Source: Mycolicibacterium tusciae JS617 (lineage in GTDB: Bacteria > Actinomycetota > Actinomycetes > Mycobacteriales > Mycobacteriaceae). Taken from it: 64,000 bases of DNA. A program made the position numbers and the translations under genes. The stretch covers positions 5,661,837 through 5,725,836 of the forward strand of contig NZ_KI912270.1 in the NCBI RefSeq assembly GCF_000243415.2. The letters run 5' to 3'. This document shows positions 2,171 through 55,296 of the stretch, one piece after another. The notes under the pieces are model-generated. The model had not been told where the DNA came from. It searched no databases and saw only the letters and a program-made list of their open reading frames with translations. The stretch's first letter is position 1. Every line of letters begins with the position of its first letter.

Positions 2171-2241
2171 GAAGCCTGCATACTGGCAATCACGTGGTCC
2201 AGCAGCGGACTCATCCGCCGACCCATTTGGAGGCCCGCGCG

Positions 2242-4503
2242 TTGTCTGACGCTGAACTGAGCGAGCCGTCGCCCGCGGGCTACGTTCCGGTCGGCACGCC
2301 CGTCGATCTCGACAACTGCGCGCGCGAGCCGATCCATATTCCCGGCCTTGTTCAGCCGCGCGGCGTGCTCGCGGTGTTGCGTGAGCCCGACTTCGAGGTA
2401 CGCCAGGTCAGCGCCAACGTTCTGGATTTGCTCGGCCGGTCAGTAGACGACGTCCTCGGCCGGCACCTCTCATTCCTCATCGGTGCCGACGAGGCCGCCC
2501 GCGTCGAACAGGCGGCGTCGGCTCCCGGCGATCTACGCCAACGCAACCCGCTCGAGTGCACGATCGACGTTGCCGGCCAACCGCGCGCGTTCGATGCGAT
2601 CCTGCACCGTGAGCCAGGCGGCGTTCTGCTGTTGGAGGTCGAGATCGCCTACGGCGCGCGACCGTTCACCTTCCCGAACACCTACCTGGCGGTGCGCAGT
2701 TCGGTGGACGAACTCAACCGTGCCACGACACTGACAGAGCTTTACGACGGCACCGCGCGCGCAGTCCGCGAGCTCACCGGCTTTGACCGCGTCATGGTGT
2801 ACCGCTACGACGAGGACTACAACGGCGAGGTTGTCGCTGAGGCCAAACGTGAGGAGCTCAATTCGTTCCTTGGCCTGCACTACCCGTCCACTGACATTCC
2901 GGCGCAGGCGCGGGCGCTGTACGAGAAGAGCTGGCTGCGGCTCATCGACGACGTCGGCTACACACCAGCACCTCTGGTGCCCGCGGCCGACCCGGAAAGG
3001 GGCGTGCCGACGGACCTGACGCACGCGACGCTGCGCAGCGTCTCGCCGATTCATATCGAGTACCTGCAGAACATGGGCGTGCATGCGTCGATGTCGATTT
3101 CACTGCTGCGGCAAGGGCGGCTGTGGGGATTGATCGCCTGCCATCACTACGCCGGTCCGCATCTGCCGCCATTCGGGACCAGGGTGGCAGCCGAATTCCT
3201 TGGCTCGACTCTCTCACTGCGACTCGTCGACCAGTTCGAAGACGAACAATTACACCGGCGGTTGGCTGCGCAGGCCGTCCTGGGCAAGCTCACCGCCGCC
3301 ACGCTGGACGACGGCGATGCGCTGACCGCGGTCCTGCTCGGAACGCCCAGTCTGCTCGACCTCGTGCCCGCCGACGGCGTCGTCGTCAACATCGGTGGCG
3401 AGTACGGGGTTCTGGGTTCGGTTCCCTCGCCGGAGATCGTGGCCGCCGTGGCCAAATGGGCACTGGACGCCGGCGACGAGATCGCAAGCAGTGAGTCGTT
3501 GTCCGGCGAGTTGGATCTCGACCTCGATCCGCAGGTGGTCTCCGGTGCGCTGGCGATCAACCTGCCCGATGGGCAGTACGCCATCTGGTTTCGAGGTGAG
3601 GTGCTGCGATCCGTCGACTGGGGCGGTGACCCACACAACAAGGCGATCGCGGTCAGCGAAGGTGACGGGCTGCGCCTGAGTCCACGCAAGTCATTCGACC
3701 GCTGGCGCGAAATCGTGGACCGATGCTGCGAGCCGTGGGCGCCGACCGAGAGGGAGTCTGCCGAAGCGTTGCGGCGACACCTCGTCGAATCGTTGTATCG
3801 ACGGACGCGCGGCGCGCTCCGCGTCGCCGAGACGCTGCAACGCAGCCTGTTGCCGTCAACGATTCCCACCCTCGAAGGCTGGCAGTTGTCGGCACACTAT
3901 GAACCCGCCGTCGGAGGGCGCGTCGGCGGCGACTGGTACGACGCGTTCGAGTTGCGCGACGGCCGGTTGATCGTGCTGATCGGCGACGTCGCAGGCCATG
4001 GCATGACCGCGGCGGGAACGATGGCGCAAGTCCGAAATACTTTGCGCGCCTACCTCTTCACGGGTGCCGCCCCCGCTGAGGCGCTCAATCAGCTCAACGA
4101 CTTCTGCATGCACATGGTCCCCCGCGCCTTCGTCACCGTGATCGTTGCCCGGGTCGATTTGGGCACCGGGTACGTCGAAGCTGCGTGCGCTGGCCACCTG
4201 ATCCCATATGTCACCCAGCGGGGCGCCTCGGCCGTCCCCGCGCCGGTACGACTGTCGCCGCCGATCGGCGCCAACGGCATGACCTATGAACCCAGCACGT
4301 TCACGATCGAGGCCGGGCAGGGCTTGGTGATGTTCTCCGATGGCCTCGTGGAACGCCGCCATGAGCCGATCGATGACGGCATCGAGCGACTTGCCGAAAC
4401 GCTCAGCCACGCAGATGATTCGACGGCGACCTGGATTGCGACGGCGATGGCGTCGAGCGAAACCGACGACGATGTCACGATCGTCACGCTCCGCCGTCCC
4501 TAG
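2242..4503 (+). CDS. Bacteriophytochrome with C-terminal PP2C (SpoIIE) phosphatase
   Basis: A red/far-red photoreceptor whose output is a Ser/Thr phosphatase rather than a histidine kinase. Order: PAS (about 15-120) with the biliverdin-attachment Cys26 in CAREPIHIPGLVQPRG; GAF (about 135-305) with YPSTDIPAQAR near residue 214 and the chromophore histidines in IACHHY near 300; PHY (about 310-495) with the conserved tongue motif PRKSF at 481; SpoIIE/PP2C (about 545-750) with GGDWYDAF, GDVAGHG, FSDGL and a terminal DDDVTIVTL metal-site motif. A TTG start at 2242 has a GGAGG site 8 nt upstream and puts Cys at 26, close to other bacteriophytochromes; the alternative GTG at 2194 has no good site. 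The probable target is an anti-sigma-factor antagonist, by analogy with RsbU. No heme oxygenase is in the window. Confidence 0.93.
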   Translation: MSDAELSEPSPAGYVPVGTPVDLDNCAREPIHIPGLVQPRGVLAVLREPDFEVRQVSANVLDLLGRSVDDVLGRHLSFLIGADEAARVEQAASAPGDLRQRNPLECTIDVAGQPRAFDAILHREPGGVLLLEVEIAYGARPFTFPNTYLAVRSSVDELNRATTLTELYDGTARAVRELTGFDRVMVYRYDEDYNGEVVAEAKREELNSFLGLHYPSTDIPAQARALYEKSWLRLIDDVGYTPAPLVPAADPERGVPTDLTHATLRSVSPIHIEYLQNMGVHASMSISLLRQGRLWGLIACHHYAGPHLPPFGTRVAAEFLGSTLSLRLVDQFEDEQLHRRLAAQAVLGKLTAATLDDGDALTAVLLGTPSLLDLVPADGVVVNIGGEYGVLGSVPSPEIVAAVAKWALDAGDEIASSESLSGELDLDLDPQVVSGALAINLPDGQYAIWFRGEVLRSVDWGGDPHNKAIAVSEGDGLRLSPRKSFDRWREIVDRCCEPWAPTERESAEALRRHLVESLYRRTRGALRVAETLQRSLLPSTIPTLEGWQLSAHYEPAVGGRVGGDWYDAFELRDGRLIVLIGDVAGHGMTAAGTMAQVRNTLRAYLFTGAAPAEALNQLNDFCMHMVPRAFVTVIVARVDLGTGYVEAACAGHLIPYVTQRGASAVPAPVRLSPPIGANGMTYEPSTFTIEAGQGLVMFSDGLVERRHEPIDDGIERLAETLSHADDSTATWIATAMASSETDDDVTIVTLRRP

Positions 4504-4520
4504 GCTGCTACGGTCCGAAC

Positions 4521-5582
4521 GTGCATCGGGTCATTCAGTGGGGCACCGGCACGGTGGGCGCCGAGATCATCACCGCGATTCTCGACCACCGCGACGATCT
4601 CGACCTCGTCGGTGCGCTGGTGTACTCCGAGTCGAAGAACGGTGTCGATATCGGCGCGCTCGTCGGCCGTGAGCCGATCGGCGTGACCGCGACCACCGAC
4701 GTCGAGCAGATCGTCAAACTGGACGCCGACTGTGTCCTCTACACCCCGCGCACCGCGCAGCTGGACGACGTGTGCCGATTGCTGGAAAGCGGAAAAAACG
4801 TTGTCACGACGGCGTTTCTGTTTCATCCGGCGCGCATCGTCGCCGCAGACCGTGACCGTGTCCTCGCGGCCTGCGAAAAGGGTGCCAGTTCGGTTCACGG
4901 CAGCGGCCTCAACCCCGGCAACCTCTCGGGTGTGCTGCCGCTGGCACTTTCGGGCATGAGCCGAACGATCGACAGGATCACGCTGCAGGAACGCGCTGAC
5001 TGGTCGGTCTACGAGAGCACCGGAATCACGTTCGACAACATGGCATTCGGGCAGCCCGTCGAGTCGATCAGCCCGACCGCGACCGATTTCCTGGCGTTCA
5101 ACAGCTCGATATTCACCGAACAGGTCTGGCTTCTTGCCGACGCGCTGAACGCCGGCATCGAGGACGTCTCCGCCACCGTGGAGGCCATCGGAGCCGAACA
5201 CGATCACCAGATCTTCGACCATCTGCTGGCCGCGGGTACGACGGCCGGACAGCGCTGGAACTGGGCTGGCCATCGCGACGGCGAAACGCTCATCGAGATC
5301 GAAACTCTGTGGACGGTGGGCGGCGAGTACCCCGCCCACTGGCCCAAACCGCAGCACGGCTGGACGCTGACCATTGAAGGTGACCCGTCGATGCGCACCC
5401 ACTTCATGTCGCTGGCCAGTTTCACGCGCAACGCCAGCATGGAAGAGCACGTCCGGTCGGCCAGCGTCGCGACGGGCATGCAGGTTCTCAACGCCGTGTC
5501 CGCCGTCTGCCAAGCCGCACCGGGTTTCGCCACTTCGGCGACGCTGCCCCTGATTCGCAGCCATACGGGGTTCAGGCGTTAA
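4521..5582 (+). CDS. NAD(P)H-dependent amine dehydrogenase / DapB-like oxidoreductase
   Basis: A 353-residue protein with an N-terminal Rossmann fold (VIQWGTGTVGAEII) and the architecture of the dihydrodipicolinate-reductase-like family that includes 2,4-diaminopentanoate dehydrogenase. GTG start at 4521, 17 bp after the phytochrome gene, so probably co-transcribed. A paralogue lies at 42812-43879 beside another TetR gene. Mycobacteria carry many copies and their substrates are largely unassigned. Its placement inside a light-signalling operon is unexpected and may be incidental. Confidence 0.75.
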   Translation: MHRVIQWGTGTVGAEIITAILDHRDDLDLVGALVYSESKNGVDIGALVGREPIGVTATTDVEQIVKLDADCVLYTPRTAQLDDVCRLLESGKNVVTTAFLFHPARIVAADRDRVLAACEKGASSVHGSGLNPGNLSGVLPLALSGMSRTIDRITLQERADWSVYESTGITFDNMAFGQPVESISPTATDFLAFNSSIFTEQVWLLADALNAGIEDVSATVEAIGAEHDHQIFDHLLAAGTTAGQRWNWAGHRDGETLIEIETLWTVGGEYPAHWPKPQHGWTLTIEGDPSMRTHFMSLASFTRNASMEEHVRSASVATGMQVLNAVSAVCQAAPGFATSATLPLIRSHTGFRR

Positions 5583-5697
5583 ACCGGGACGGGCTAGCCG
5601 CTATTGTCGGGAGTGTCACTAAAGAAGCGGTCACGGCGGCCACGGTGAATACGCGTGAAAGACGTGGTTGCGAGTGCGTTCGGTATATAAACCTGGG

Positions 5698-6885
5698 GTG
5701 AGCACGTCGGCTGATCAGTCCGCCATTGCGCCGCCGTTCTCGGTGCTGCTTGTGGAAGACGACCGGGCCGACGCGGTACTGGTCGAGGAACTGATCGCCG
5801 ATTCAGGCGCCGATATCCAGGTGGCCTGGGCGTCGTCGATGGAGGACGCCGAGCGTCGATTGGCGGTCGCCCGTCCCGACTGCGTACTTCTCGACCTCAA
5901 CCTTCCCGACGCGGACGGAATCAAGGCGCTCGACCAGATCGCCAAACATGACCCGACCATGCCGATCGTGGTGTTGACGGGTCTCCACGACGAACACTTC
6001 GGGGTCTCCGCCGTCGCTGCGGGTGCACAGGATTACCTGGTCAAGGGGCGGGTTGAGCCCGATACTCTGCACCGCGCGCTGCTGTACGCAGTCGAACGTA
6101 AGCGCTCCGCGCTGACCACGGTCGAATTGCGCGCCAGCGAACTACGCGCCAGGGAGAACGCCCGCCTGGAACGCGGACTGCTGCCGTCACCGCTGCTGCT
6201 GGACAACCCGGGCGTGGACATTGTCGCGCAGTACCGGCCCAGCCGGCAGTTCGCGCTGCTCGGCGGCGACTTCTACGACTTCGTTCAAACGCCCGACCGC
6301 ACCGTGCACATCATGGTCGGTGACGTCGCCGGACACGGTCCGGACGAGGCGGCGCTGGGGGTCGCGCTGCGTATCGGTTGGCGCGCATTGACATTCGCCG
6401 GCCTGCGCGGCAACGAGCGGATGCGTCAGCTGGAACGGATTCTGAGCACCGAGCGTCCCGGTACGAGCATCTTCGCGACAGTGCTTTCCGTGGCGATCTC
6501 GCCCGACGATCTGAGCTTCAACGCGGTGTCCGCCGGGCATCCCGGCATGCTGCTGCACGGGCCCGGTTCGGTGGAGTGGCTGGAACCGTCGGTGGGTCCC
6601 GCGCTGGGTCTCAACGGCTTCGAATGGCCGCTGAACATCCTGGAACTGCCGCCCGACCACGGCCTCGTGCTCTTGACCGACGGCTTGTTCGAGGGCCGAT
6701 CCGGAACCGGGACCGAGCGGCTGATGGAGACAGGCCTGCTGGAGGTGGCCCGGTCCTATGCGAGCCTGCCCGGTCCCGAATTCGTCAATGCGCTGATCGA
6801 GGACGTCGAGCGGCGCGCGCAGTCCGTCGGTGGGACCAGTGACGACATCGCTGTCGTGCGGGTCGAGCGGACAGCCACCGAATGA
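5698..6885 (+). CDS. Response regulator fused to PP2C (SpoIIE) phosphatase
   Basis: A receiver domain (residues about 10-135) with the acidic pair EDD, phospho-acceptor Asp66 in LLDLNLP and the conserved lysine in YLVKG, a short coiled linker rich in Glu/Arg, then a SpoIIE phosphatase (about 165-395) with LLGGDFYD, GDVAGHG, LTDGLFEG and DDIAVVRV. This is the RsbP/RssB-like layout in which phosphorylation controls dephosphorylation of an anti-sigma antagonist. The GTG at 5698 was chosen because the conserved region begins soon after; a TTG at 5668 is in frame but lacks a ribosome-binding site. The stop overlaps the next start (ATGA at 6882), so receiver, kinase and second receiver form an operon. 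Confidence 0.9.
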   Translation: MSTSADQSAIAPPFSVLLVEDDRADAVLVEELIADSGADIQVAWASSMEDAERRLAVARPDCVLLDLNLPDADGIKALDQIAKHDPTMPIVVLTGLHDEHFGVSAVAAGAQDYLVKGRVEPDTLHRALLYAVERKRSALTTVELRASELRARENARLERGLLPSPLLLDNPGVDIVAQYRPSRQFALLGGDFYDFVQTPDRTVHIMVGDVAGHGPDEAALGVALRIGWRALTFAGLRGNERMRQLERILSTERPGTSIFATVLSVAISPDDLSFNAVSAGHPGMLLHGPGSVEWLEPSVGPALGLNGFEWPLNILELPPDHGLVLLTDGLFEGRSGTGTERLMETGLLEVARSYASLPGPEFVNALIEDVERRAQSVGGTSDDIAVVRVERTATE

Positions 6886-8453
6886 CGTGGCGACCGACGG
6901 TCCAGGGGTGGCAGAACCTGGTGCTTGCGGTCATGGGCGTCATCGTGCTCGCCGCCGCCATCACCGCGGGATTTCTGCAGACCCGGACAGACCAGCTGTT
7001 TGACGAGATCCTCGGAGAGATCGGACCGATGCGGATCGCCGCCTACCAGCTGCAGGCCGCATTGCGTGATCAGGAGACGTCGGTTCGTGGATATGCGATC
7101 TCCGCCGATCCCCAGTTCCTCGAGCCGTATGTCGCCGGGCAGAAGGCCGAAGCATCCGCAGAGCAGGTGATCCGGGAACACGCTGGAGACCGCACAAAGC
7201 TGCTCGCCGACGTGGAGGCCATCGAGGCCACGTCCGCAACGTGGCGAAGCGCCTATGCCGAGGAACTCATCGCCGACGTCAAACCCGGCGTGCCTACGGT
7301 CATCGACAATGTGACCGCCGAACGCGGGAAGACGATATTCGATGATCTCCGCCAGAACTTCGACGCACAGCTCCAACACCTGCAGCAAGAGCGTGACGCC
7401 ACGGTCGCCGAACTTGCGGCGGTGCAGAATTGGCGGGACATCGTTCTGGTCGCGGTAGTCCTTGCGATCGCCGTCGCCGCCATCCTGTCGGCTTTGGTGA
7501 TCAGAACCACCGTCACGCGCCCGCTCACCGCCCTGGCCAGCTCATGCAGGAGAATCACCGAGGGCGACTTCAGCGAGCACATCGTGCCCCAAGGCCCCAA
7601 AGACATTCGCGCGATCGCGGCCGACGTCGAGGACATGCGTCAACGGATCGTCGACGAGCTCGAAGCCACCCAGACGGCGCGAAGCCAACTGGCCGATCAG
7701 GCTCTTGAACTGCAGAGGTCGAACGCCGAACTCGAGCAGTTCGCGTACGTCGCGTCGCACGACCTTCAGGAGCCACTGCGCAAGGTGACCGCGTTCTGCC
7801 AACTCATCGAGAAGAGATACGGCGACAAGCTCGACGAGCGAGGCGTCGAGTACATCGCGTTCGCCGTCGACGGCGCCAAGCGTATGCAGACGCTGATCAA
7901 CGATCTGCTCACCTTTTCTCGCGTCGGTCGGTTCAATTCGACGCGTACCGACGTCGACCTCGGCGCCACCCTGGACGCCGCACTCGAAAACCTGGAGACC
8001 GCCGTCGCCGAGTCCGGCGCGCAGATCGTTCGCCAGGGGCCGCCGCTACCGCGGATCATGGGGGACCCCACCCTGCTGACGATGGTGTGGCAGAACCTCA
8101 TCGGCAATGCGGTCAAGTTCCGGCGCGACGGCGTCGCGCCACACATCGTCATCGAGTGCGAACAGAACTCGAACGGGCAAGACAAGTCGTGGAAGATGAC
8201 GGTGACCGACAACGGCATCGGCATTCCCGCGGAGTTCTCCGAGAAGGTGTTTGTGGTCTTCCAGCGCCTGCACGGCCGCGACGCCTACACCGGTACCGGT
8301 ATCGGGCTCGCTCTGTGCAAGAAGATCATTGAATACCACGGCGGCAACATCTGGATCGACACCGCCTATTCCGAGGGAACCCGGTTTCGATTCACCATCC
8401 CCTCCGCTGTGGGCGCGGCCCCCTCAGCCGCTCTGGAAGGAACGAACGCATGA
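6882..8453 (+). CDS. CHASE3-HAMP sensor histidine kinase
   Basis: A 523-residue membrane kinase. TM1 is about residues 12-32, followed by an extracytoplasmic CHASE3 domain (about 35-180), TM2 about 185-207, HAMP (about 208-262), a short coiled coil, then HisKA with His293 in VASHDLQEPLRKV and HATPase_c with GNAVKFRR (N box), DNGIGIP (G1) and GTGIGLALCKK (G2). The HDLQEPLRKV phospho-acceptor motif is the type seen in phytochrome-like and Rcp1-coupled kinases. ATGA overlaps at both ends tie it to the response regulator-phosphatase upstream and the receiver downstream, which are its likely phosphorylation partners. Confidence 0.92.
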   Translation: MTWRPTVQGWQNLVLAVMGVIVLAAAITAGFLQTRTDQLFDEILGEIGPMRIAAYQLQAALRDQETSVRGYAISADPQFLEPYVAGQKAEASAEQVIREHAGDRTKLLADVEAIEATSATWRSAYAEELIADVKPGVPTVIDNVTAERGKTIFDDLRQNFDAQLQHLQQERDATVAELAAVQNWRDIVLVAVVLAIAVAAILSALVIRTTVTRPLTALASSCRRITEGDFSEHIVPQGPKDIRAIAADVEDMRQRIVDELEATQTARSQLADQALELQRSNAELEQFAYVASHDLQEPLRKVTAFCQLIEKRYGDKLDERGVEYIAFAVDGAKRMQTLINDLLTFSRVGRFNSTRTDVDLGATLDAALENLETAVAESGAQIVRQGPPLPRIMGDPTLLTMVWQNLIGNAVKFRRDGVAPHIVIECEQNSNGQDKSWKMTVTDNGIGIPAEFSEKVFVVFQRLHGRDAYTGTGIGLALCKKIIEYHGGNIWIDTAYSEGTRFRFTIPSAVGAAPSAALEGTNA

Positions 8454-8893
8454 CGCCAGCCGGTCGGGCCATCGACGTCTTGCTCATCGAGGACGATCCG
8501 GGAGACGAGCTGATCACCCGAGAAGCCTTCGAGCACAACAAGATCAAGAACAAGCTGCACGTCGCCCACGACGGTGAGGAGGGGCTGGACTTCCTGTACC
8601 GACGCGGGGCCCATAAGAATGCGCCACGACCGGATCTGGTGCTGCTCGATTTGAACCTGCCGAAATACGACGGCCGCCAGCTGCTCGAGCGGATCAAGAC
8701 CGACCCGGATCTCTGCCACATCCCCGTGGTGGTTTTGACGACGTCCTCGGCGGAAGAGGACATCCTGCGCAGCTACAAGCTGCACGCCAATGCCTACGTC
8801 ACCAAGCCGGTCGAACTGGATGAGTTCATGCACGTAGTGCGTCAGATCGACGAGTTCTTCGTTCAGGTGGTCCGGCTGCCGCCGCAGGTCTGA
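8450..8893 (+). CDS. Single-domain response regulator, Rcp1-like
   Basis: A 147-residue stand-alone receiver with acidic pocket EDDPGDELI, phospho-acceptor Asp67 in VLLDLNLPKYDG, Thr/Ser in VLTTSS and Lys in YVTKPVEL. The EDDPGDxxLxxEAF start and VTKPVELDEF end are typical of Rcp1, the response regulator partnered with cyanobacterial phytochrome Cph1. There is no output domain, so it is probably a phospho-shuttle or phosphate sink for the kinase at 6882. Its 3' end overlaps the convergent RsbW-like gene by 31 bp. Confidence 0.9.
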   Translation: MTPAGRAIDVLLIEDDPGDELITREAFEHNKIKNKLHVAHDGEEGLDFLYRRGAHKNAPRPDLVLLDLNLPKYDGRQLLERIKTDPDLCHIPVVVLTTSSAEEDILRSYKLHANAYVTKPVELDEFMHVVRQIDEFFVQVVRLPPQV

Positions 8894-9787: not shown

Positions 9788-10141
9788 ATGAAGCTGGTCT
9801 TCAACTCAATGGCTGCCGCGCTGGCGACCGCCGCAGCCGCCGTGACACTGGCGCCGCCGGCCGGCGCCGACAGTGTCGCCTACCTAGTCAACGTGCACGT
9901 GCGGCCCGGCTACAACTTCCCGAACGCCGAGGCTGCGATCGGCTACGGCAACACCATCTGCGACCGGGTCGCGGCCAAAATGGGTTACGCGCAGCTCGTC
10001 GACCAGGTGAAGGCCGACTTCCACACGGCCGACTACTACCAGGGCGCATACCTGATCAACCAGGCCGTCAACGAGCTGTGTCCTGCGCAAATCTGGCAGC
10101 TGCGCCAGTCCGCCGGCGGTTACACCCTTCCTGCAGTCTGA
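9788..10141 (+). CDS. DUF732 family secreted protein
   Basis: A 117-residue protein with a signal peptide (about residues 1-28, cut near PPAGADS) and a mature helical domain containing two conserved cysteines (NTICDRV and NELCPAQ), the layout of DUF732 proteins common in mycobacteria. The function is unknown. The ATG at 9788 directly precedes the signal peptide (MKLVFNSMAAAL). It diverges from the small secreted protein at 9368-9739 and converges on lpqH, from which it is separated by a strong hairpin. Confidence 0.82.
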   Translation: MKLVFNSMAAALATAAAAVTLAPPAGADSVAYLVNVHVRPGYNFPNAEAAIGYGNTICDRVAAKMGYAQLVDQVKADFHTADYYQGAYLINQAVNELCPAQIWQLRQSAGGYTLPAV

Positions 10142-10203
10142 TCGCGGCCTCACGCCAAACGGGCCAAGCGCGGCGTGGGACAACCGCGTGGGACAACGAT
10201 GAC

Positions 10204-10237
10204 AACGGCGGCGCCCCCGTTGGGGACGCCGCCGCTG
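10204..10237. terminator. Hairpin terminator between convergent genes
   Basis: GGCGGCG (10207-10213) pairs with CGCCGCC (10227-10233), and inside it CCCC pairs with GGGG around a GTT loop. There is no U tract, which is common in mycobacteria. It separates the DUF732 gene from lpqH and can act for both strands. Confidence 0.65.
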
Positions 10238-10258
10238 TGACGCGATGGGGTTGTCTAG

Positions 10259-10723
10259 CTAGGGGCAGCTGACCTCGATTTCGAATGGCTTGTTCACCGG
10301 CTGCATCGGGTTGGCCATGTCCACACCGGTGGCGGTGCCGGAGATCTTGTAGGTGCTGCCGTCCTTCTCAGCCTTGGCCTCGCCCTGGCCGGTGCCGGTC
10401 TGATAGCCCAGCGTCACGCCGTTGACGTTGCCAAGACCCACCGACTGCACCGTGGGTTCATCACCCTCGCTGACCACCGCCGCGATGCCCGTGGCGGCGT
10501 CACCGATTGCGATGTTCATGTTTCCACCCATTGAGCTGCAGACGACCGTGCCCTGGACCGCCTGGTCCTGACCATCGATCGTGACGGTGGACTTACCCTC
10601 CGCCGCCGCGGCGGACGACGTCTCGCCGGTGGTCTCAGATTTCTTGTCGTCCGACGAACACCCGGACAGGCCGGCGACGAGGATAGCCATGCCGCCCACG
10701 GCGACTACGAACCCACGCTTCAC
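10259..10723 (-). CDS. lpqH: LpqH, 19 kDa lipoprotein antigen orthologue
   Basis: A 154-residue lipoprotein (M. tuberculosis LpqH is 159) with a lipobox at LVAGLSGC (Cys22), a Ser/Thr/Ala-rich linker that would carry O-mannosylation, and the PF05481 domain. The stretches [28 protein letters not shown] and [10 protein letters not shown] agree with my memory of LpqH. It is exported, lipid-anchored and a TLR2 ligand in pathogens. An AAAGGAG site sits 7 nt upstream of the GTG at 10723 (a second GTG at 10726 is possible). A paralogue lies immediately upstream on the same strand. Confidence 0.92.
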
Positions 10724-48124: not shown

Positions 48125-48877
48125 TCAGTTTTTGATGACGGCGCAGCCGACCATGGCCGCGGAGCTGACGAGGCTGCGGCGGCAGTCGTCGCATGTCGGG
48201 CACGACTCGATATGGCGCGCAATACGTTTGCGCATCAGCACGTTGAACTGTCCGTCCCAGTCAGAGACGACCGCGGCGAGTTCCGGGCATCCGTTCACCG
48301 CAGCGCGCCGGGCCACCAACAGGGCGCCCAACGAGCGCTCGAAAGTGTTGCGCAGCCGTTGTAAAAGCTTCTTGGCGCAATCGTGGCTGACACCCAGCGC
48401 CTCCGCGAGCTCTGGGCCGGCCAGGCCCTGGCGGTAGGCCAGCTCCAGCACGTTGCGATCGCGGTCGCACAATCCCCTGGCAGCCGCACCGACCAGCGCA
48501 GCGAGCTCATTGCGTGCGGTCAGGGTGAACGGGCCGGGACCGACGAACGCCGTGTCGGGCATCTGGTCGACGGCGGGTTCGCGGCGCTGCTCGTGCAGTT
48601 TGCGCAGGGCGGTGCGGCGGGCGATGGCGTACAGCCACGGCCGCAGCTTGTCGGGCTCACGCAGTTTCGCCAGATCGGCTGCCGCGATGCAGAAGACGTC
48701 TTGCACGCAATCGGCGGCCGTGTGTTGGTCGCGCACCAGTCCCACGCAATAAACGTGAAGCCGGCCCGCGTAGCGGTGGTAGATGGCGCCCAAAGCGACA
48801 CGGTCGCCTGCTGCCGCGGCCACCGCAAGCTCCGCGTCGCTGAGGGTTTGTACCGGCGGTGTGGTGGTGGATGCCAT
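48125..48877 (-). CDS. Sigma-70 family (ECF-like) sigma factor with C-terminal anti-sigma zinc motif
   Basis: A 250-residue protein: sigma region 2 (about 15-85: ELAVAAAAGDRVALGAIYHRYAGRLHVYC, TAADCVQDVFCIA, LRPWLYAIARRTALRKL), region 4 (about 120-180: CDRDRNVLELAYRQGLAGPELAEALGVSHDCAKKLLQRL) and a C-terminal segment with HIESCPTC, the HX3CX2C signature of zinc-binding anti-sigma factors, plus further cysteines (DDCRR, VGCAV). Carrying both functions in one chain suggests self-control. It is the last gene of the RiPP island, on the same strand, and the probable activator of the cluster. ATG 48877. A stem-loop separates it from the precursor gene. Confidence 0.87.
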   Translation of the reverse strand: MASTTTPPVQTLSDAELAVAAAAGDRVALGAIYHRYAGRLHVYCVGLVRDQHTAADCVQDVFCIAAADLAKLREPDKLRPWLYAIARRTALRKLHEQRREPAVDQMPDTAFVGPGPFTLTARNELAALVGAAARGLCDRDRNVLELAYRQGLAGPELAEALGVSHDCAKKLLQRLRNTFERSLGALLVARRAAVNGCPELAAVVSDWDGQFNVLMRKRIARHIESCPTCDDCRRSLVSSAAMVGCAVIKN

Positions 48878-48987
48878 GAGTGAAATCGTCGCTTCTCGGC
48901 CCGTATTCCGTAATCGCCCCGAGGCCAGATTCCACGTCCGAGAGGGAAGGGTTTCCTGTCCGACAGGTAAGTCCGCCACACAACGAC

Positions 48988-49029
48988 GACCGCCCCACAA
49001 CCGAAAGGGAGGTCGGTTGTGGGGCGGTC
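48988..49029 (-). terminator. Stem-loop 1, downstream of the precursor peptide gene
   Basis: A perfect 17-bp stem (48988-49004 with 49013-49029) and an 8-nt loop. On the transcribed minus strand the loop reads CCTCCCTT, similar to the anti-Shine-Dalgarno sequence. No U tract. It lies between the precursor and sigma-factor genes and is nearly identical to the stem at 49414-49456. Confidence 0.75.
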
Positions 49030-49091
49030 TGGTTGTGGTCAGTGGCCGGCTACGTCGGGTGTAGCCGCGCCGACTCACTACTTCGTGTGGG

Positions 49092-49283
49092 CTACTTCGT
49101 GTGGGCGGTGCCCGTGCCGGTGCCGTTGCCGGTCCCGCCGCCGGTGCCGTTGCCGGTTCCGCCGCCGGTGCCGTTGCCACCGCTGAGCAGGGGGCGACGG
49201 CCGCCGTGGGCGAGGCTCATCTCATCGGCCGTCAGGGTGCGGATGCTCTGGCGACGCAGGGCCAGCTTGTTGCGTGCGTTCAT
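49092..49283 (-). CDS. RiPP precursor peptide, double-glycine leader and Thr/Gly/Asn repeat core
   Basis: 63 residues. The leader 1-28 ends LTADEMSLAHGG, matching the C39-peptidase consensus (Leu -12, Glu -8, Met -7, Ala -4, Gly -2, Gly -1). The core 29-63 starts RRPLLSGG and continues with GNGTGGGT-type octapeptides repeated about 2.5 times, ending GTAHTK. It has one Ser and eight Thr but no Cys, so LanB-type dehydration is possible but thioether rings are not. A second GG (35-36) is an alternative cut site. The ATG has a strong AGGAGG site about 8 nt upstream. It lies between dehydratase and sigma genes and is bracketed by twin stem-loops. A 14-bp tandem duplication spans the stop codon. 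Confidence 0.82.
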   Translation of the reverse strand: MNARNKLALRRQSIRTLTADEMSLAHGGRRPLLSGGNGTGGGTGNGTGGGTGNGTGTGTAHTK

Positions 49284-49413
49284 GGTGTTCTCCTCCAGGT
49301 TGTCGCTGCCCCGGGTGGGCCGCGCTCATAGGTAAGAGGACCAAACCCGTTGAAAGGGGACGCTTTTAGCCTGCACTTGTCGGAACTCTCGGCGTTCGAC
49401 ACCGCACGCAGAA

Positions 49414-49456
49414 CACCGCCCCACAAACCGAAGGGGAGGACGGTTGTGGGGCGGTG
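49414..49456 (-). terminator. Stem-loop 2, between dehydratase and precursor genes
   Basis: A 16-bp stem (49414-49430 with 49441-49456, one bulged A) and a 10-nt loop reading TCCTCCCCTT on the minus strand. The stem is nearly the same as 49/48.99 kb stem-loop 1. It sits 18 bp after the dehydratase stop and upstream of the probable precursor promoter, so it may terminate the long transcript or stabilise its 3' end. Confidence 0.75.
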
Positions 49457-49474
49457 CCGTGGGGGTGATGCGAG

Positions 49475-52400
49475 TCAGCGTCGGGCGAGTTGGCTGGCGT
49501 AGTGCCGGTCCAGGAAGCTCAGCAGGACGAGCTCATGCGTGCGGGCGGCCGACCTCAACAGCCGCACCGCGTTGAGGTGGCTGAAGCTGTGCAACAGTGC
49601 ATCGTAGGACTGCGTCAGCTCGCCGCGCTTCGACCGGTCCGCCAGCTCAGCGAGCAGCGGTGCCAACCGTTCGGATCGCCGCCGGAACACCTGGCGTGCC
49701 GCCTCGTAGGGATGATCGGCAGTCTCGTCGAGCAGCGCAGCCACATCGGATCGTTCGCTGCGCCACCGTTGCCCGATCCCGGGGTCGAGGTTGTTCGCAT
49801 TCGGGTACTCGGGGCGATAACCCGCTGCTCCGCTCTTCGCCCAGTCGCGGCGTTGTCCGATGCCGAGTCCGGCGTCGGCGAGCAGACGGTCGGTGGCGTA
49901 CAGGCACAGCTTCCAGCGCGCGTCTGCGGCCCCCTCGTCAAAGTGCTCGCCGTCGAGCATGGCAAGGACGTCGAGCACGGCGTCGCTGTCCACGGCGTGG
50001 ATCTGCTCGGCGAGATCGATACCGGCGTCACCGCCGTACCTTTCGACCTCGCGGTCGTAGGTGTCGGTCGAGACCTTCCACACCGTGCCGTCGCCGAGGT
50101 GGGTGGCCAGAACGTCGGTGAGCGCCGGCAGCGCGTGTTCGCGCAGTGCGGCCGGGTCTCCATGCAGACGCAGCCTGAGGTGGTGCTCCGGGTCGGCGTA
50201 GCGCAGGAAGAACCAGTGGTCGAGGATCCCGGCGTCGCGCAATCCGGCGATTGCAGGGCCGACGGCGTCGGTGAGAATGCGGTCCGCGCAGGCAGTTCCG
50301 GTGTACGCCTTGAGATACAGCCATTCGCTGCCAGGGGCGAAACTGCGCCGTGCTCCTGGCGCTCGCCACGGCTGGGGGGCCGACGCGGGCTCACCCGCAC
50401 GCAGGAACGGCACGATGAGCTCGTGGGCGAATCGGCCCTGCGGGCCGGTGGCGATCGCGCTCGACAGCACCTCCTCGATGACGGCCGCAGACCGCCCGCG
50501 CAGCACCTTCGCCGCTGTCGCCACCAACGCGGGGCTGGAGGTGTCGACATACAGGCGGTTGTCGCCGTCTGCGATCAGCAGCTCCCCTGGTAGCCCGCGG
50601 GCGTCGCTCAGCGATCTCCAGCCGGCGATCGGGTCGTCTCCGGTGACCGTCTTGAGTTCGGCGGCCGACAGGTGCCAGCGGGCCCGGGCCAGCACCAGCT
50701 TTCCCGCCGTGACGCGCGGCAAGCTCGGCGCCGACGACAGTGCGCCCCAATCCCACGCCAGCCCGCCGGCCGCGCCGTCGTTCTGCACCGCGGCCAGGAA
50801 CCGGTAGACGCCGAACCCACGCCACGCTGGATTGTGCGCGGTGGTCAGCCTGGGCCGGACTTCGGCGCCAAGCCGGTGGCTGTAGAGGACCACCCGATCG
50901 CCGTCGAGGCGCACGGTCAGTTCGTCCACGCTGATCTGGCGCTCCGCCGGCGCTCCTGAGCGGCCAAGCAGCACCAGCTCGTAGTCGCGCAGCACCGGCC
51001 GCGCCAGCACGTTGCCGACGCGCCCTTCCGGCAGGTGGATGATTTCGGCGAACACGACGCCGGGTGCCTGCGCCTCCTCGGCTCGCAGGTGCGATGTCAC
51101 CGCGTCGTGCAGACGACTATCGCCGTGGCAGAATCGGCCGAGCAGCTCTGCCCCGGAAGGCCCACTGGCACTGTGGATTTCGATGCCGTCGTCCAGCACG
51201 CTGGCGAACACCGCCAGTGCGTCGGGCAACGGCAGCGGCGTGGCGGTGGCGAGACGGGCCACCGTCGCCGCGTCCAGCTCCAGGGCGCCTCGATCGCGGG
51301 TGCGCATCACCAGGTCGAGCAACGTCGCGTCGCGCGCGGTGAACGCGACATCGCCTGCGACGCCGCCTAAGTCGAGACCTGAAAGCAGAGGCGACTCGTC
51401 TGCGGCGGGGTGCGACGACCGGTCGTAGCCGATGCCCATCTCCTCGTCGAGGGCCTCCATCAACGGGATCTCGCGGTCCTCGTAGCGGGCCGCGAAGTCA
51501 GCCTTGAACCGGCGCAACGCCGGATCGGCGCGGTGGGCCGAAAGTCGATGCAGCAGATCCACGCCCTGCGTCAGGAGCCGCACGTCGTCGCTGCCGAGCG
51601 TCAGACCCTCGCCGTCGCGGTGCAGGTCGACCTGGATCAGCCGGGCTTTGTCGCCGCCACCGGCAAGCTCCAGCAGGCTGGTCGCCACGCTGTCGTAGGC
51701 GGTTGGCAGGTTGCCGAGCCCGGCGGCGTCGAGCTTGGTGAGCTCCTCGGCCACCTGGGCGAGCGCCTGCGACGACGCGGTGAGGCCGGCTGCGTTCAGA
51801 GCCGAAAGGACGTGCGCCAACGGCTCGGGTCCGGTCACCGCGGGTTCGGCCACCGGGGTGAGCACCCGCGCCTCGACGAGGGCGTCGACGTACTCGCGTG
51901 CCTCGTCGGCCTCGACGCCGATCTGTGCCTGGACCGCCTGTGCGACCGTCTCGACCGAGCGCCCGCCCGCCGCGGCGTCCAGCGCGCACCGCAACGGTGC
52001 GTCGTCGGTGATCATGACGAGGTGGTGGGTGCGCCTGCCCTCGCCCAGCCGACTCTCGATGAGTCGCATCGCGCCGGCGGCGTGGTAGCGGCTGGAGTTG
52101 GGCTCGACGGCCATCGCCGGCCGTGTCGCCGGGTCGGCGAGCAGACGTTCGACGAGAGCAGCAAGCGCCTCGGTGTCGGGGCGGCTGTGGCGCGTGGTGC
52201 CCTCCGGACCGTCGACCCTCAATGCGGTGGTCTCACTCACCGAGCCAAGTGCGCAGCCGGCAAAGAGCCCGAAAGGCGTTGCCCGGGTGCACATCCGAAC
52301 CAGATAGGCGGTCACGGAGGCGGCCACCTTGTCGTCCGGTTTGCCGTCCGCCAAGCGCTGCAGCAGCCCGGGTGACGCAAGATGCAATGCCTCGCGGACC

Positions 52401-52534
52401 TCGGGTCGCTCCGCGAGAACCTGCCAGTACCGCGCGTCACCGCGCAGGCGATCCAGCTCGTCGGTCGGCAGTAACGGGGCGCGCATCACGAAGAAACCGC
52501 TCGGCGTCAACTTCGTCGTGGCTGGGGCATTCAT
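49475..52534 (-). CDS. LanB-type lantibiotic dehydratase, full length
   Basis: 1019 residues. The N-terminal Lant_dehydr_N part (about 1-680), which in the family transfers glutamate from Glu-tRNA to Ser/Thr, has YLVRMCTRATPFGLFAGCALG, FKADFAARYEDREIPLMEALDEEMGIGY and VFAEIIHLPEGRVGNVLARP. The C-terminal SpaB_C elimination/thiopeptide-type domain (about 730-1015) has EWLYLKAYTGTACADRILTD, WFFLRYADPEHHLRLRLHG, DTYDREVERYGG and LHSFSHLNAVRLLRS. Both halves are fused, so it should complete dehydration to Dha/Dhb alone. ATG 52534 with AGGA 7-8 nt upstream, 9 bp after the transporter stop. The likely substrate is the 63-residue peptide at 49092-49283. No LanC is encoded nearby. Confidence 0.92.
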   Translation of the reverse strand: MNAPATTKLTPSGFFVMRAPLLPTDELDRLRGDARYWQVLAERPEVREALHLASPGLLQRLADGKPDDKVAASVTAYLVRMCTRATPFGLFAGCALGSVSETTALRVDGPEGTTRHSRPDTEALAALVERLLADPATRPAMAVEPNSSRYHAAGAMRLIESRLGEGRRTHHLVMITDDAPLRCALDAAAGGRSVETVAQAVQAQIGVEADEAREYVDALVEARVLTPVAEPAVTGPEPLAHVLSALNAAGLTASSQALAQVAEELTKLDAAGLGNLPTAYDSVATSLLELAGGGDKARLIQVDLHRDGEGLTLGSDDVRLLTQGVDLLHRLSAHRADPALRRFKADFAARYEDREIPLMEALDEEMGIGYDRSSHPAADESPLLSGLDLGGVAGDVAFTARDATLLDLVMRTRDRGALELDAATVARLATATPLPLPDALAVFASVLDDGIEIHSASGPSGAELLGRFCHGDSRLHDAVTSHLRAEEAQAPGVVFAEIIHLPEGRVGNVLARPVLRDYELVLLGRSGAPAERQISVDELTVRLDGDRVVLYSHRLGAEVRPRLTTAHNPAWRGFGVYRFLAAVQNDGAAGGLAWDWGALSSAPSLPRVTAGKLVLARARWHLSAAELKTVTGDDPIAGWRSLSDARGLPGELLIADGDNRLYVDTSSPALVATAAKVLRGRSAAVIEEVLSSAIATGPQGRFAHELIVPFLRAGEPASAPQPWRAPGARRSFAPGSEWLYLKAYTGTACADRILTDAVGPAIAGLRDAGILDHWFFLRYADPEHHLRLRLHGDPAALREHALPALTDVLATHLGDGTVWKVSTDTYDREVERYGGDAGIDLAEQIHAVDSDAVLDVLAMLDGEHFDEGAADARWKLCLYATDRLLADAGLGIGQRRDWAKSGAAGYRPEYPNANNLDPGIGQRWRSERSDVAALLDETADHPYEAARQVFRRRSERLAPLLAELADRSKRGELTQSYDALLHSFSHLNAVRLLRSAARTHELVLLSFLDRHYASQLARR

Positions 52535-52543
52535 TTCCCTGTC

Positions 52544-54697
52544 CTAACTTTCGGCACCGACGAGCTGGCCTGCGACGAGCTGTGCATAGTGACCGTCTGC
52601 CGCCATGAGATCGCGATGGCGGCCGACCTCGACGACCCGGCCTTGGTCCATCACGACGATGCAGTCGGCGTCGACGACCGTCGCGAGCCGATGTGCGACC
52701 AGTACGACGGTGCAGCCGAGCCGGGCGATATTGGCGTGCACCTTCGCCTCGGTGACGGTGTCCAGATTGCTGGTGGCCTCGTCGAGCAGCAGGAGCCGTG
52801 GCCGGGTCGCCAGCGCGCGGGCCAGCGCCAGTCGCTGGCGTTGGCCACCGGACAGTGAGGCGCCCGCGTCGACGAGCGGGGTGTCCCAAGCCATCGGCAT
52901 CGCACGGATGTCGTCGGCGATCCCGGCCTGCTCGGCGGCGGCCTCCAGCTGCTCCAGCGGAAGGCTCGGGTCACCGAGACTGAGGTTGTCGCGTATCGAC
53001 AGCCCGAAGATGTACGGATCCTGGGTCACCACCCCGATCTGCGAACGCACACTGCGGGGAAGCATTGCCGCCAAATCGATTCCGTCGAGCACGACCCGGC
53101 CGGCTTCGGGGGCGTACAGACCAAGCAGCAGCCGGCCCAACGTGGACTTGCCCGAGCCTGAGCGTCCGACGACGGCCAGCACCTGACCCGGCCGCACGTC
53201 GAGGTCGACGCCTTCGATGGCGGGCGGTCCGTGCGGTGTGTAACGGAAGGTGAGCCCCTCGGCGCGAAGTGCGCCGGTGAGCGCAGGAGCGTGCCGCAGG
53301 TCGCGCCCTGCGGTCTCGGTCGGGGTGTTGAAGACGTCGTCGAGACGGGCCAGGTAGCTGCCGAGGAGCTGAATCTGCAGGACGGTGCCGACGAGGACGC
53401 CAAGCGGTTCGAGGAACGCGGTGGACAGTGCGGCCAACGCGAGCATGGTGCCCAGCGAGAGCTGCCCGCTGCCGACCAGGTAGGCGCCGAATACGAGCAC
53501 CGCGATCGGGGAGAGCAGCGACAGTCCGTGGAGCGCGGTCTCGACGGCGGCCGAAAGGCGGCCGCGACGCAACGAGACGTTCAGCTCGGCCACGAACAAG
53601 TTGGTCCAGTGCGATACCGCGCGTCGTTCGGCACCGGCGGCCTTCAAAGTCTCGACAGCAGAGAACATCTCGTAGGCGTAGGACTGCGAACGGGCCTCGG
53701 TGGCCAGTGCCTCTCCCATCAGATGCTGGTTGCGTCTCCGCGCCGACAACAGGACGACGACCTGGGCTGCGCCGAGGACCACCACAAGGAAACCGAGCTG
53801 CGGCGACAACGCGAAGATCACCGCCAGGTATGCGGTGGCCAGCACACCGTCGAGCAGAGCGGCGATGGTTCCGCTGGTCAGAATCTCGCGGACCGTCGCG
53901 TTGCTCCGCAGCCGCATCATCAGGTCCCCGGACGAGCGTTTCAGGAAGAACGCGTACGGCAGGTCCACCAGGTGCTCCAGGAAGCCCAGCGTCATCTCGA
54001 CGTCGAGGCGGCTGCGCAACCGCAGCAGCAGGTGGGCTCGAAGGAAGGTGGCGAGCGCCGAATAGCAGATCAGTGCGGCCATCACCGCGGCGACGATCTT
54101 CAGCAGGCGGTCACCGCCGGCGGGCACGATCTGGTCCACGATCACGCCGGTGAGGATCGGCACGGCCAGCGCCATCAGCCGGACCACCACCGAGGTGGCC
54201 AGCACCTTGCCGATTCCACTCGAGCGGGTCATCAGTCGCCGCGCGTGGTGCAGCGCACCCGGCGCCCGTCGTCCGCCCGCGCTGAACGCGTCGCTGGGCT
54301 CGAGCAGGATCGCGACCCCGCTGTACAGCTCGCTGACGGCCTGCCACGAGACGCGGTAGCTGCCCGCGGCGGGATCGACGATCGTGACTCCGCGCCGCGA
54401 TGTCGAATCTAGCACAACGAAATGTGCCGCACCCCAGTGCAATACGGTGCCGCGTGGCAGCATCCGCAGATCGTCGAGTTCGGTGGCCACCCCGCGGGCA
54501 CGAAGACCGTACGCCGTCGCGGCTTCAGCCAACCGCAGCGCGTCGACGCCGTCGCGTCCGGTGCCGGTGGCCTCGTGCATCTCCGACAGGGACACGTGGC
54601 GGCCGTGATAGGCGAGCGCCATGCACATCGCGGCGGCCCCGCAATCGGCCATCTCGGCCTGCGAGATATAGGGGATCGCGCGTCGTCGCCAGCTCAC
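52544..54697 (-). CDS. Peptidase (C39)-containing ABC exporter
   Basis: A 717-residue PCAT. N-terminal C39 protease (about 1-130) with Gln13, Cys19 (QAEMADCGAAAM), His92 (WGAAHFVVLD) and Asp108 (TIVDPAAG) all present, so active; a six-TM ABC membrane domain (about 155-440); and an ATPase with GRSGSGKSTLGRLL, LSGGQRQRLALARAL, LLLLDEATSNLD and the H loop VLVAHRL. It should cut the leader after Gly-Gly and export the core peptide. GTG 54697 overlaps the adaptor stop (GTGA), so the two are coupled. Partner of the precursor, whose leader matches the C39 consensus. Confidence 0.93.
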   Translation of the reverse strand: MSWRRRAIPYISQAEMADCGAAAMCMALAYHGRHVSLSEMHEATGTGRDGVDALRLAEAATAYGLRARGVATELDDLRMLPRGTVLHWGAAHFVVLDSTSRRGVTIVDPAAGSYRVSWQAVSELYSGVAILLEPSDAFSAGGRRAPGALHHARRLMTRSSGIGKVLATSVVVRLMALAVPILTGVIVDQIVPAGGDRLLKIVAAVMAALICYSALATFLRAHLLLRLRSRLDVEMTLGFLEHLVDLPYAFFLKRSSGDLMMRLRSNATVREILTSGTIAALLDGVLATAYLAVIFALSPQLGFLVVVLGAAQVVVLLSARRRNQHLMGEALATEARSQSYAYEMFSAVETLKAAGAERRAVSHWTNLFVAELNVSLRRGRLSAAVETALHGLSLLSPIAVLVFGAYLVGSGQLSLGTMLALAALSTAFLEPLGVLVGTVLQIQLLGSYLARLDDVFNTPTETAGRDLRHAPALTGALRAEGLTFRYTPHGPPAIEGVDLDVRPGQVLAVVGRSGSGKSTLGRLLLGLYAPEAGRVVLDGIDLAAMLPRSVRSQIGVVTQDPYIFGLSIRDNLSLGDPSLPLEQLEAAAEQAGIADDIRAMPMAWDTPLVDAGASLSGGQRQRLALARALATRPRLLLLDEATSNLDTVTEAKVHANIARLGCTVVLVAHRLATVVDADCIVVMDQGRVVEVGRHRDLMAADGHYAQLVAGQLVGAES

Positions 54698-55152
54698 CAA
54701 AACCTCGGCAGGAACACGTCGATCAACCGTTGGCGCTCGGCCGGGACCACGAGCTCACCGGCGGATGCCGGGGTGGGCTCCTGCAATCGGGCGGTCACCT
54801 CGGTCCCGGTGACGTCGACGATGACCGCGTCGACTGGTAATCCGAATGCGTGGCGGAACTGCACCGCGGCACCGGGGGCGGGCGGCGGGGGCGGACCCGC
54901 GGCGCGGTCGGCGGTCAGGGTGGTGCCCTGGACGACCGCGGGCATCGTCGCGGTCTGTTCGACGGTGATCGTGCCTGCGGCAACCGCACCGCCGATCAGT
55001 GCCACGACCAGCGTGGCGAGTCCCGCATCGAGCCATCGGGGATTCCTGATCAACTCTCCGGGCCGGGCCCCCGCCCTCTGACGGTCCCGCCAGCTCGCGC
55101 GAAACACGGACTCGTAGCGGATTTCTTCGTGGTCGGCACCATTTGTCGTCAC
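54694..55152 (-). CDS. Short HlyD-like membrane adaptor for the exporter
   Basis: A 152-residue protein: N-terminal cytosolic segment (EEIRYESVFRASWRDRQRAGARPGELIRNPRWL), one TM (about 42-63: AGLATLVVALIGGAVAAGTITV) and a short extracytoplasmic part with a lipoyl/barrel-like stretch (TATMPAVVQGTTLTA, VIVDVTGTEVTARLQEP). It is placed like an HlyD membrane-fusion protein but lacks the long coiled coil, in keeping with an organism whose exporter need not reach a Gram-negative outer membrane. ATG 55152. First gene of the island's minus-strand transcript; its promoter lies in the 144-bp gap to dnaX. Confidence 0.75.
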   Translation of the reverse strand: MTTNGADHEEIRYESVFRASWRDRQRAGARPGELIRNPRWLDAGLATLVVALIGGAVAAGTITVEQTATMPAVVQGTTLTADRAAGPPPPPAPGAAVQFRHAFGLPVDAVIVDVTGTEVTARLQEPTPASAGELVVPAERQRLIDVFLPRFW

Positions 55153-55296
55153 ATCGACTCCCCAAAGTGTGGCTGCCGGTTGGCAACATTGGTAGGAGCG
55201 CTGACCGCGGCGAACGGTGACACATTTCCCGCGGAAGTGCCGGTTTGGTTACACGGCGCGCCGCGGCGTCACCCGGCCTCGGTAGCGTGGGCGAGC

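Follow-up and report, generated by a model that had tools for sequence, protein, structure and literature searches.

A five-gene block in Mycolicibacterium tusciae JS617 is probably a class I lanthipeptide pathway that has lost its cyclase (LanC) and the Cys residues of its substrate and that now makes a ring-free, dehydrobutyrine (Dhb)-rich peptide for export. The block lies in the 64,000-nucleotide (nt) stretch of contig NZ_KI912270.1 that we analyzed (hereafter, the window), part of a 7.3-Mb genome in 4 contigs with a listed completeness of 100%. An earlier reading made from the DNA alone (the sequence-only reading) had proposed dehydration without a cyclase. Our analysis supports that interpretation, and it is further supported by LanC-bearing sister clusters that have Cys-containing cores behind the same leader. 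From the genes, we infer in-cell dehydration of Thr and Ser and a product that stays linear.

Organization of the locus

The five open reading frames (ORFs) that had been proposed are all present on the minus strand at 48125-55152. In the order of transcription, they encode a membrane-anchored protein, a C39-ABC exporter, the dehydratase LanB, a precursor peptide, and an extracytoplasmic function (ECF) sigma factor. The features of the locus, with the basis of each, are as follows.

55188-55221, minus strand: putative ECF promoter of the adaptor-ABC-LanB operon, GTCACC ... CTCCTACCAAT (motif location)
54694-55152, minus strand: 152-amino-acid (aa) protein with a transmembrane helix and a small extracytoplasmic beta barrel, a possible exporter partner (predicted structure)
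52544-54700, minus strand: C39 peptidase-ABC exporter (Pfam; catalytic patterns across exporters)
49475-52534, minus strand: full-length LanB dehydratase with glutamylation and elimination domains (Pfam, conserved residues, structure model, and ratio of nonsynonymous to synonymous substitution rates [dN/dS])
49416-49455, no strand: GC-rich hairpin in the LanB/precursor interval, terminator-like with no T run (sequence; near-copy of the hairpin at 48990)
49328-49361, minus strand: putative ECF promoter of the precursor gene, GTCCCC ... CTCTTACCTAT
49092-49283, minus strand: precursor gene, 28-aa leader ending in AHGG plus 35-aa Cys-free core with three GNGTG[TG]GT octapeptides (sequence, leader alignment)
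48990-49028, no strand: GC-rich hairpin 3' of the precursor gene (sequence)
48125-48877, minus strand: ECF sigma factor with a C-terminal Cys and HxxxCxxC (TIGR02937 above its cutoff; conserved residues)

LanB retains both catalytic halves

LanB is a single protein of 1019 aa. It covers almost the whole of two Pfam domains, with 458 bits for Lant_dehydr_N and 206 bits for Lant_dehydr_C, which bears out the claim of a full-length enzyme. Residues R80, R84, T86, and D120 align on R83, R87, T89, and D121 of NisB, and R787, R789, E829, and R832 align on NisB R784, R786, E823, and R826; we take these NisB counterparts to have glutamylation and elimination active-site roles. We also take LanB D303, R467, and H986 to be equivalent to NisB D299, R464, and H961. 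All 11 positions are invariant in 20 LanBs, the LanC-associated ones included, and in a wider set of 26 LanBs, D120 varies in two distant rows (T in L038 and S in L039; L and G numbers denote loci and genomes). Judged from sequence, LanB has the glutamylation and elimination domains with their catalytic residues, as class I lanthipeptide clusters require.

The structure model of LanB (mean predicted local distance difference test [pLDDT] score, 82) has MadB, MibB, and NisB as its best structural matches, followed by TbtB and GodF. Three pairs from cyclase-less clusters gave LanB dN/dS values of 0.18, 0.22, and 0.21; for two pairs associated with LanC, the values were 0.17 and 0.10. A search of a plasmid collection yielded no close relative: 78 records match LanB, all at <60% identity, and the best among the 15 listed is 33.6% identical.

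The precursor is a conserved peptide without Cys

The 63-aa precursor consists of the leader MNARNKLALRRQSIRTLTADEMSLAHGG followed by the core RRPLLSGGNGTGGGTGNGTGGGTGNGTGTGTAHTK, which is made up of the octapeptides GNGTGGGT, GNGTGGGT, and GNGTGTGT plus an AHTK tail. With 8 Thr, 1 Ser, and 0 Cys in the core, the predicted Cys-free peptide with up to nine Ser/Thr holds. The core mass is 3082.489 Da. A GGAGGAG ribosome-binding site is present at the gene. The leader is conserved over 23 aligned precursors, ending in GG; it recurs in 12 mycobacterial clusters and is common to the window cluster and its LanC-bearing relatives. Thr (24.9%) and Ser (8.2%) together account for about one third of core residues. 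Because precursors were found with text patterns, those with other leaders would escape. In alignment A1, the row of the L002 A1 precursor is incomplete at its end, and one LanC-associated precursor (L005) is included.

Several clusters have two precursors, a longer A1 type and an octapeptide A2 type; in the window we found only the A2 type and no A1. The clusters of L004 and L008 have a different Cys-free core, made of TSVINPSGG repeats. Among the A2 cores, L007 and L034 differ by 8 synonymous and 0 nonsynonymous changes over 32 codons, L010 and L034 by 7 and 1, L007 and L010 by 3 and 1, and L003 and L010 by 12.5 and 3.5. The two L009 precursors differ by 11 synonymous and 2 nonsynonymous changes over 27 codons, and the A1 cores of L002 and L003 are clearly constrained (15 versus 6). 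Since differing Gly and Thr codons specify identical residues, the pattern is not mere repeat slippage. These codon comparisons indicate that the octapeptide-repeat core is selected as protein in close relatives, and less clearly so in the window itself.

Two further precursors were seen outside this scheme. In L003, a third precursor (5141 onward) ahead of the membrane-protein gene has the same leader and a short core with a single Cys (ANAKTGTCIPTRTTNRTK); no LanC match was found in that genome. Genome G665 has one more precursor (L097, 8395-8760), which combines a long Gly-Thr repeat with a Pro-rich tail and lies on a contig other than that of the LanB cluster, whose precursors, unlike L097, are of the TSVINPSGG type.

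No neighboring LanC in the mycobacterial clusters

The window's own genome has 1 LanB, 0 matches to PF05147 (LanC), and 1 precursor with this leader. Neither a cyclase nor a further, Cys-bearing precursor with this leader was found elsewhere in that genome, in agreement with the sequence-only reading. In all, 12 mycobacterial clusters (LanB 67 to 100% identical) have the same leader and no neighboring LanC, and 22 of their 23 precursors are without Cys. PF05147 had no match in 11 of the 12 genomes; in the twelfth, that of L006, the match is in a kinase fusion on a different contig. This fusion (L040, genome G252, 3483-5792) joins a kinase to a LanC-like domain and resembles a class III/IV synthetase.

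Any LanB match was present in 13 of 248 genus genomes, and a match of at least 67% identity was present in 7, the window's own included. Precursors were present in 13 of 396 genus genomes, among them all 7 just mentioned; of the six others, 4 have a LanB and 2 do not. The small gene is thus conserved with the dehydratase, as the sequence-only reading requires. In L095 (genome G698, ~6529-8544), a deletion has taken LanB and the exporter except for about its first 60 codons, leaving the membrane protein, the sigma gene, and a precursor whose core is shortened. L096 (genome G740, 10086-10475) is an orphan precursor with a TSVINPSGG-type core, in a genome without a LanB or LanC match. L114 (6966-10196) encodes a full-length LanB that has 40% identity to that of the window; its genome, G931, is listed as 99% complete and has no PF05147 match. 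No precursor of the searched leader pattern was found in its neighborhood; L114 is possibly another cyclase-less LanB system.

Relatives with LanC have Cys in the core

Within the LanB clade, four relatives that belong to two genera other than Mycobacterium (LanB 68 to 71% identical) combine LanC with the same leader, and all of the clade precursors beside LanC (4/4) carry 2 to 3 Cys in the core. The core is RAFSDHGSGCATSDRCATYACPRSSSSW in Smaragdicoccus L005 and a Nocardiaceae metagenome-assembled genome (L011) and KPKFSEHGTQCATSDKCKTK in L112 and L113, so that the four members represent two lineages with one core sequence each. LanC is adjacent in all four loci and in the outgroup L070 (LanB 44% identical), which has a one-Cys precursor. 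The LanCs of the LanC-bearing clade members retain WCYG and CHG. Cys was present in 5 of 5 precursors with LanC and in 1 of 22 without (Fisher's exact test, P = 7e-5; the test took 22 cyclase-less precursors, and the later count was 23), a value that only describes the pattern because the rows are related.

Outside the clade, the LanCs of L005 and L112 score highest against the L070 LanC (128 and 143 bits, versus 88.6 and 84.7 for the next match), and in the LanB tree the L070 protein is the nearest outgroup. It is therefore probable that LanC and LanB were inherited together and that LanC was lost in the mycobacteria. LanC and the Cys residues are most likely ancestral and lost in mycobacteria, a direction that the sequence comparisons establish in part. 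In the tree without the outgroup, the four LanC-bearing rows form one side of a branch (100/99). The LanB tree excluded L012 (half gene) and L073, and two further trees took only rows with both LanB and the ABC protein.

Several observations weigh against a cyclase-less pathway derived in this way. The product is so far a prediction from the genes. The window precursor scores 15.6 bits against NF038153, the NCBIfam class I lanthipeptide leader, below the 22-bit cutoff (the model matches 9 of the 23 aligned precursors at E values up to 1). One precursor of the L003 cluster has one Cys despite its cyclase-less setting. Two genomes, G698 (the deletion remnant) and G740 (the orphan), have a precursor without LanB. 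The absence of LanC is weaker evidence in G041 (listed completeness, 89%) and in G633 and G662 (92% and 84%; apparently the genomes of L006 and L012) because these genomes are incomplete. The window core differs from that of L002 by 8.5 synonymous and 8.5 nonsynonymous changes (dS, 0.42; dN, 0.16), and three pairs of A1 cores show little constraint. Finally, when the tree is rooted on L070, the cyclase-less rows do not form one clade in the best tree; a single clade was not rejected by the approximately unbiased (AU) test (p-AU, 0.07; 0.19 before L112 and L113 were added). A single loss of LanC is for this reason not established, and repeated loss, or loss and regain, is possible.

Export and the membrane-anchored protein

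The exporter matches the Pfam domains Peptidase_C39, ABC_membrane, and ABC_tran, and its identification as a C39-ABC exporter is confirmed; its nearest NCBIfam model is TIGR03796, with a score below that model's cutoff. In a pattern search, QxxxxDCG was found in 17 of 17 exporters and H...DP in 16 of 17. A C39 domain with Cys, His, and Asp and a leader ending in GG are what a double-glycine exporter has, and cleavage is predicted from these motifs.

The fifth protein (54694-55152) had been called an adaptor. It is membrane anchored, and its HlyD-type identity was not confirmed: the protein has no Pfam match, and its model (mean pLDDT, 71) combines a transmembrane helix with a small beta barrel and has ATPase N-terminal barrels as top structural matches. 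HlyD is not among the 50 structural matches listed, an absence that says little. The protein is a possible partner of the exporter.

The sigma factor and putative promoters

The sigma factor matches TIGR02937 (NCBIfam) above its cutoff, so that this assignment too was correct. Its ORF was listed as 48125-49180, and conservation starts at the ATG at 48877 (stop at 48125); the overlap with the precursor gene is due only to an overlong GTG start. Residues C197, H222, C226, and C229 are invariant in 10 of 10 aligned sequences. CorE is a known example of an ECF factor whose Cys-rich tail senses metal (passages of PMC8999054), and the window factor resembles such factors, by sequence alone, in its C-terminal Cys and HxxxCxxC. 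In several loci, the sigma gene or the cluster has a gene for an FHA-domain protein as its neighbor (L007, 12743-13369, by Pfam; similar N termini by eye in L006, L010, L034, L095, and L112).

A motif, GTC[ACT]C - spacer - CT[CT][CT]TACC, occurs twice in the window: at 49361-49328, ahead of the precursor gene, and from 55221, at a distance of 69 nt from the membrane-protein gene that follows. A first, looser pattern matched 10 of 20 sequences, with 14 of 15 matches just upstream of a precursor. The second pattern matched 8 of 20 sequences and gave 16 matches: 11 upstream of precursors, 4 at 69 to 80 nt before the membrane-protein gene (window, L007, L010, and L034), and 1 elsewhere in L095, away from its precursor; it missed L006 and L113. 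A sigma orthologue was found in 10 of the 20 sequences (window, L002, L003, L006, L007, L010, L034, L095, L112, and L113). Matches were confined to sigma-bearing loci, with none in the 10 loci where no sigma gene was found (the L012 contig is cut short, and its sigma gene could lie outside). Two matches were found in the window versus 0 in 100 shuffles. The motif was read by eye from the upstream regions of these same loci, and so the shuffle comparison is circular and the association between motif and sigma gene is suggestive only. The precursor gene and the adaptor-ABC-LanB operon are probably under the control of the cluster's own sigma factor.

Proposed pathway and alternative explanations

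In the pathway that we propose, the cluster's ECF sigma factor would switch on the precursor gene and the adaptor-ABC-LanB operon. LanB would bind the conserved leader and, by glutamyl-tRNA-dependent glutamylation and elimination, act on the core Thr residues and the one Ser; homology and conserved residues predict up to 8 Dhb and 1 dehydroalanine (Dha). No lanthionine rings would form, because the genome has no LanC and the core has no Cys. The C39-ABC exporter would then cleave after AHGG and release a basic-tailed, Gly/Asn/Dhb-rich peptide of about 35 residues. A more specific version, to which we give slightly less than even credence, is that ring formation has been abandoned in favor of a linear peptide of three Gly-Asn-Gly-Dhb-type octapeptides, in which the dehydro residues are the working groups, as an electrophile array or a Dhb-stiffened strand, and that the sigma tail may sense a metal or thiols.

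Alternatively, Dhb and Dha could be intermediates to which an outside nucleophile adds, either a small thiol such as mycothiol or a Lys or His of the tail, giving an adduct or an amine-cross-linked peptide. Dhb and Dha are electrophiles, and several of the repeat-type cores close with a tail of His, Thr, and Lys residues (e.g., AHTK or AHTKTKA). However, the tail is not universal, being missing in L009, L035, and the TSVINPSGG type, and no conserved extra enzyme was found in the block, its neighbors varying between loci. We consider such adducts rather unlikely.

It is improbable that LanB is vestigial or has another substrate and that the cell exports an unmodified, plain Gly/Thr-rich peptide that serves as a signal or resembles a bacteriocin. 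The leader also fits the plain double-Gly type, and G740 and G698 retain precursors without LanB, but LanB has dN/dS values of 0.18 to 0.22 and 11 invariant positions and adjoins the precursors in the clusters found, and Thr and Ser make up about a third of the core. It is very improbable that rings do form, whether through a cyclase acting in trans or through a partner peptide that has Cys: the LanC domain of the kinase fusion in the L006 genome and the one Cys in an L003 precursor fit this idea, and the lack of PF05147 in 11 of 12 cyclase-less genomes and the single precursor of the window's genome speak against it. Lastly, the repeat is of simple sequence and has further open frames, but a chance frame in a GC-rich simple repeat is rejected, with hardly any probability left to it, on the leader conservation in 23 aligned precursors and the synonymous-biased change in relatives' repeat cores, along with the conserved upstream motif and the ribosome-binding site.

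Relation to known systems

The most similar known systems are class I lanthipeptides of the NisB/NisC type, the nearest being the LanB-LanC clusters of Smaragdicoccus niigatensis (L005) and genus g97 (L112 and L113). These share with the window cluster a LanB (68 to 71% identical), the leader, the exporter, and the membrane protein, and L112 and L113 also have an orthologous sigma factor. They differ in having LanC and 2 to 3 core Cys; the window cluster has neither and so lacks two defining features of class I lanthipeptides.

The split LanBs of goadsporin and thiopeptides carry out glutamyl-tRNA-dependent dehydration without a lanthionine cyclase, after azole formation (passages of PMC10676384). 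Dehydration without LanC is common to both, and GodF and TbtB are among the structural matches of the window LanB, but the goadsporin and thiopeptide enzymes are split and act after YcaO azole formation, whereas the window LanB has both domains in one 1019-aa protein. No YcaO was found among the block's five genes (Pfam); no genome-wide YcaO search was made. Cys-free precursors also occur beside class II LanM enzymes and among some "cyanotins" (passages of PMC7268733). These too are dehydratase linked, but LanM belongs to another enzyme class and carries its own cyclase domain. Peptide aminoacyl-tRNA ligases (PEARLs) have a LanB-like fold and use aminoacyl-tRNA (in part of PMC12945691). They are small and extend peptides, whereas the window LanB has both domains and the elimination residues; its identity as a PEARL is ruled out by the presence of Lant_dehydr_C and the invariance of those residues.

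In the open-license literature, we found no account of mycobacteria in which a full-length LanB works without a cyclase and is paired with Cys-free precursors. The combination of a full-length LanB, a conserved Cys-free precursor family, and no cyclase has a fair chance of being recognized as a distinct class of ribosomally synthesized and posttranslationally modified peptide (RiPP) once the product is seen. One large lanthipeptide survey was anchored on LanC (PF05147), as described in a portion of PMC7268733, and cyclase-less clusters were by design invisible to it. If the more specific version of the pathway given above is true, these clusters would be a RiPP class beyond the reach of LanC-anchored genome mining. 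They also look like an experiment run by nature: the cyclase and the cysteines vanish together and the full-length LanB stays intact, so that one can test directly whether dehydration by itself yields a selected product. Related clusters with and without LanC behind one leader are ready controls for the substrate choice of LanB.

Genomic setting and other observations

The block, about 7.2 kb, is an insertion between an aminotransferase gene and dnaX: in 11 of 12 genus relatives, only 18 to 336 nt separate these two genes, and for the remaining relative, no dnaX was found in the flank examined. The GC-rich hairpins at 48990-49028 (after the precursor gene) and 49416-49455 (after LanB) are nearly identical and are perhaps the trace of a duplicated precursor-hairpin unit from which one precursor is gone. 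Elsewhere in the window, 2194-4503 on the plus strand encodes a phytochrome-type protein with PAS_2, GAF, and PHY domains and a C-terminal SpoIIE phosphatase domain (Pfam).

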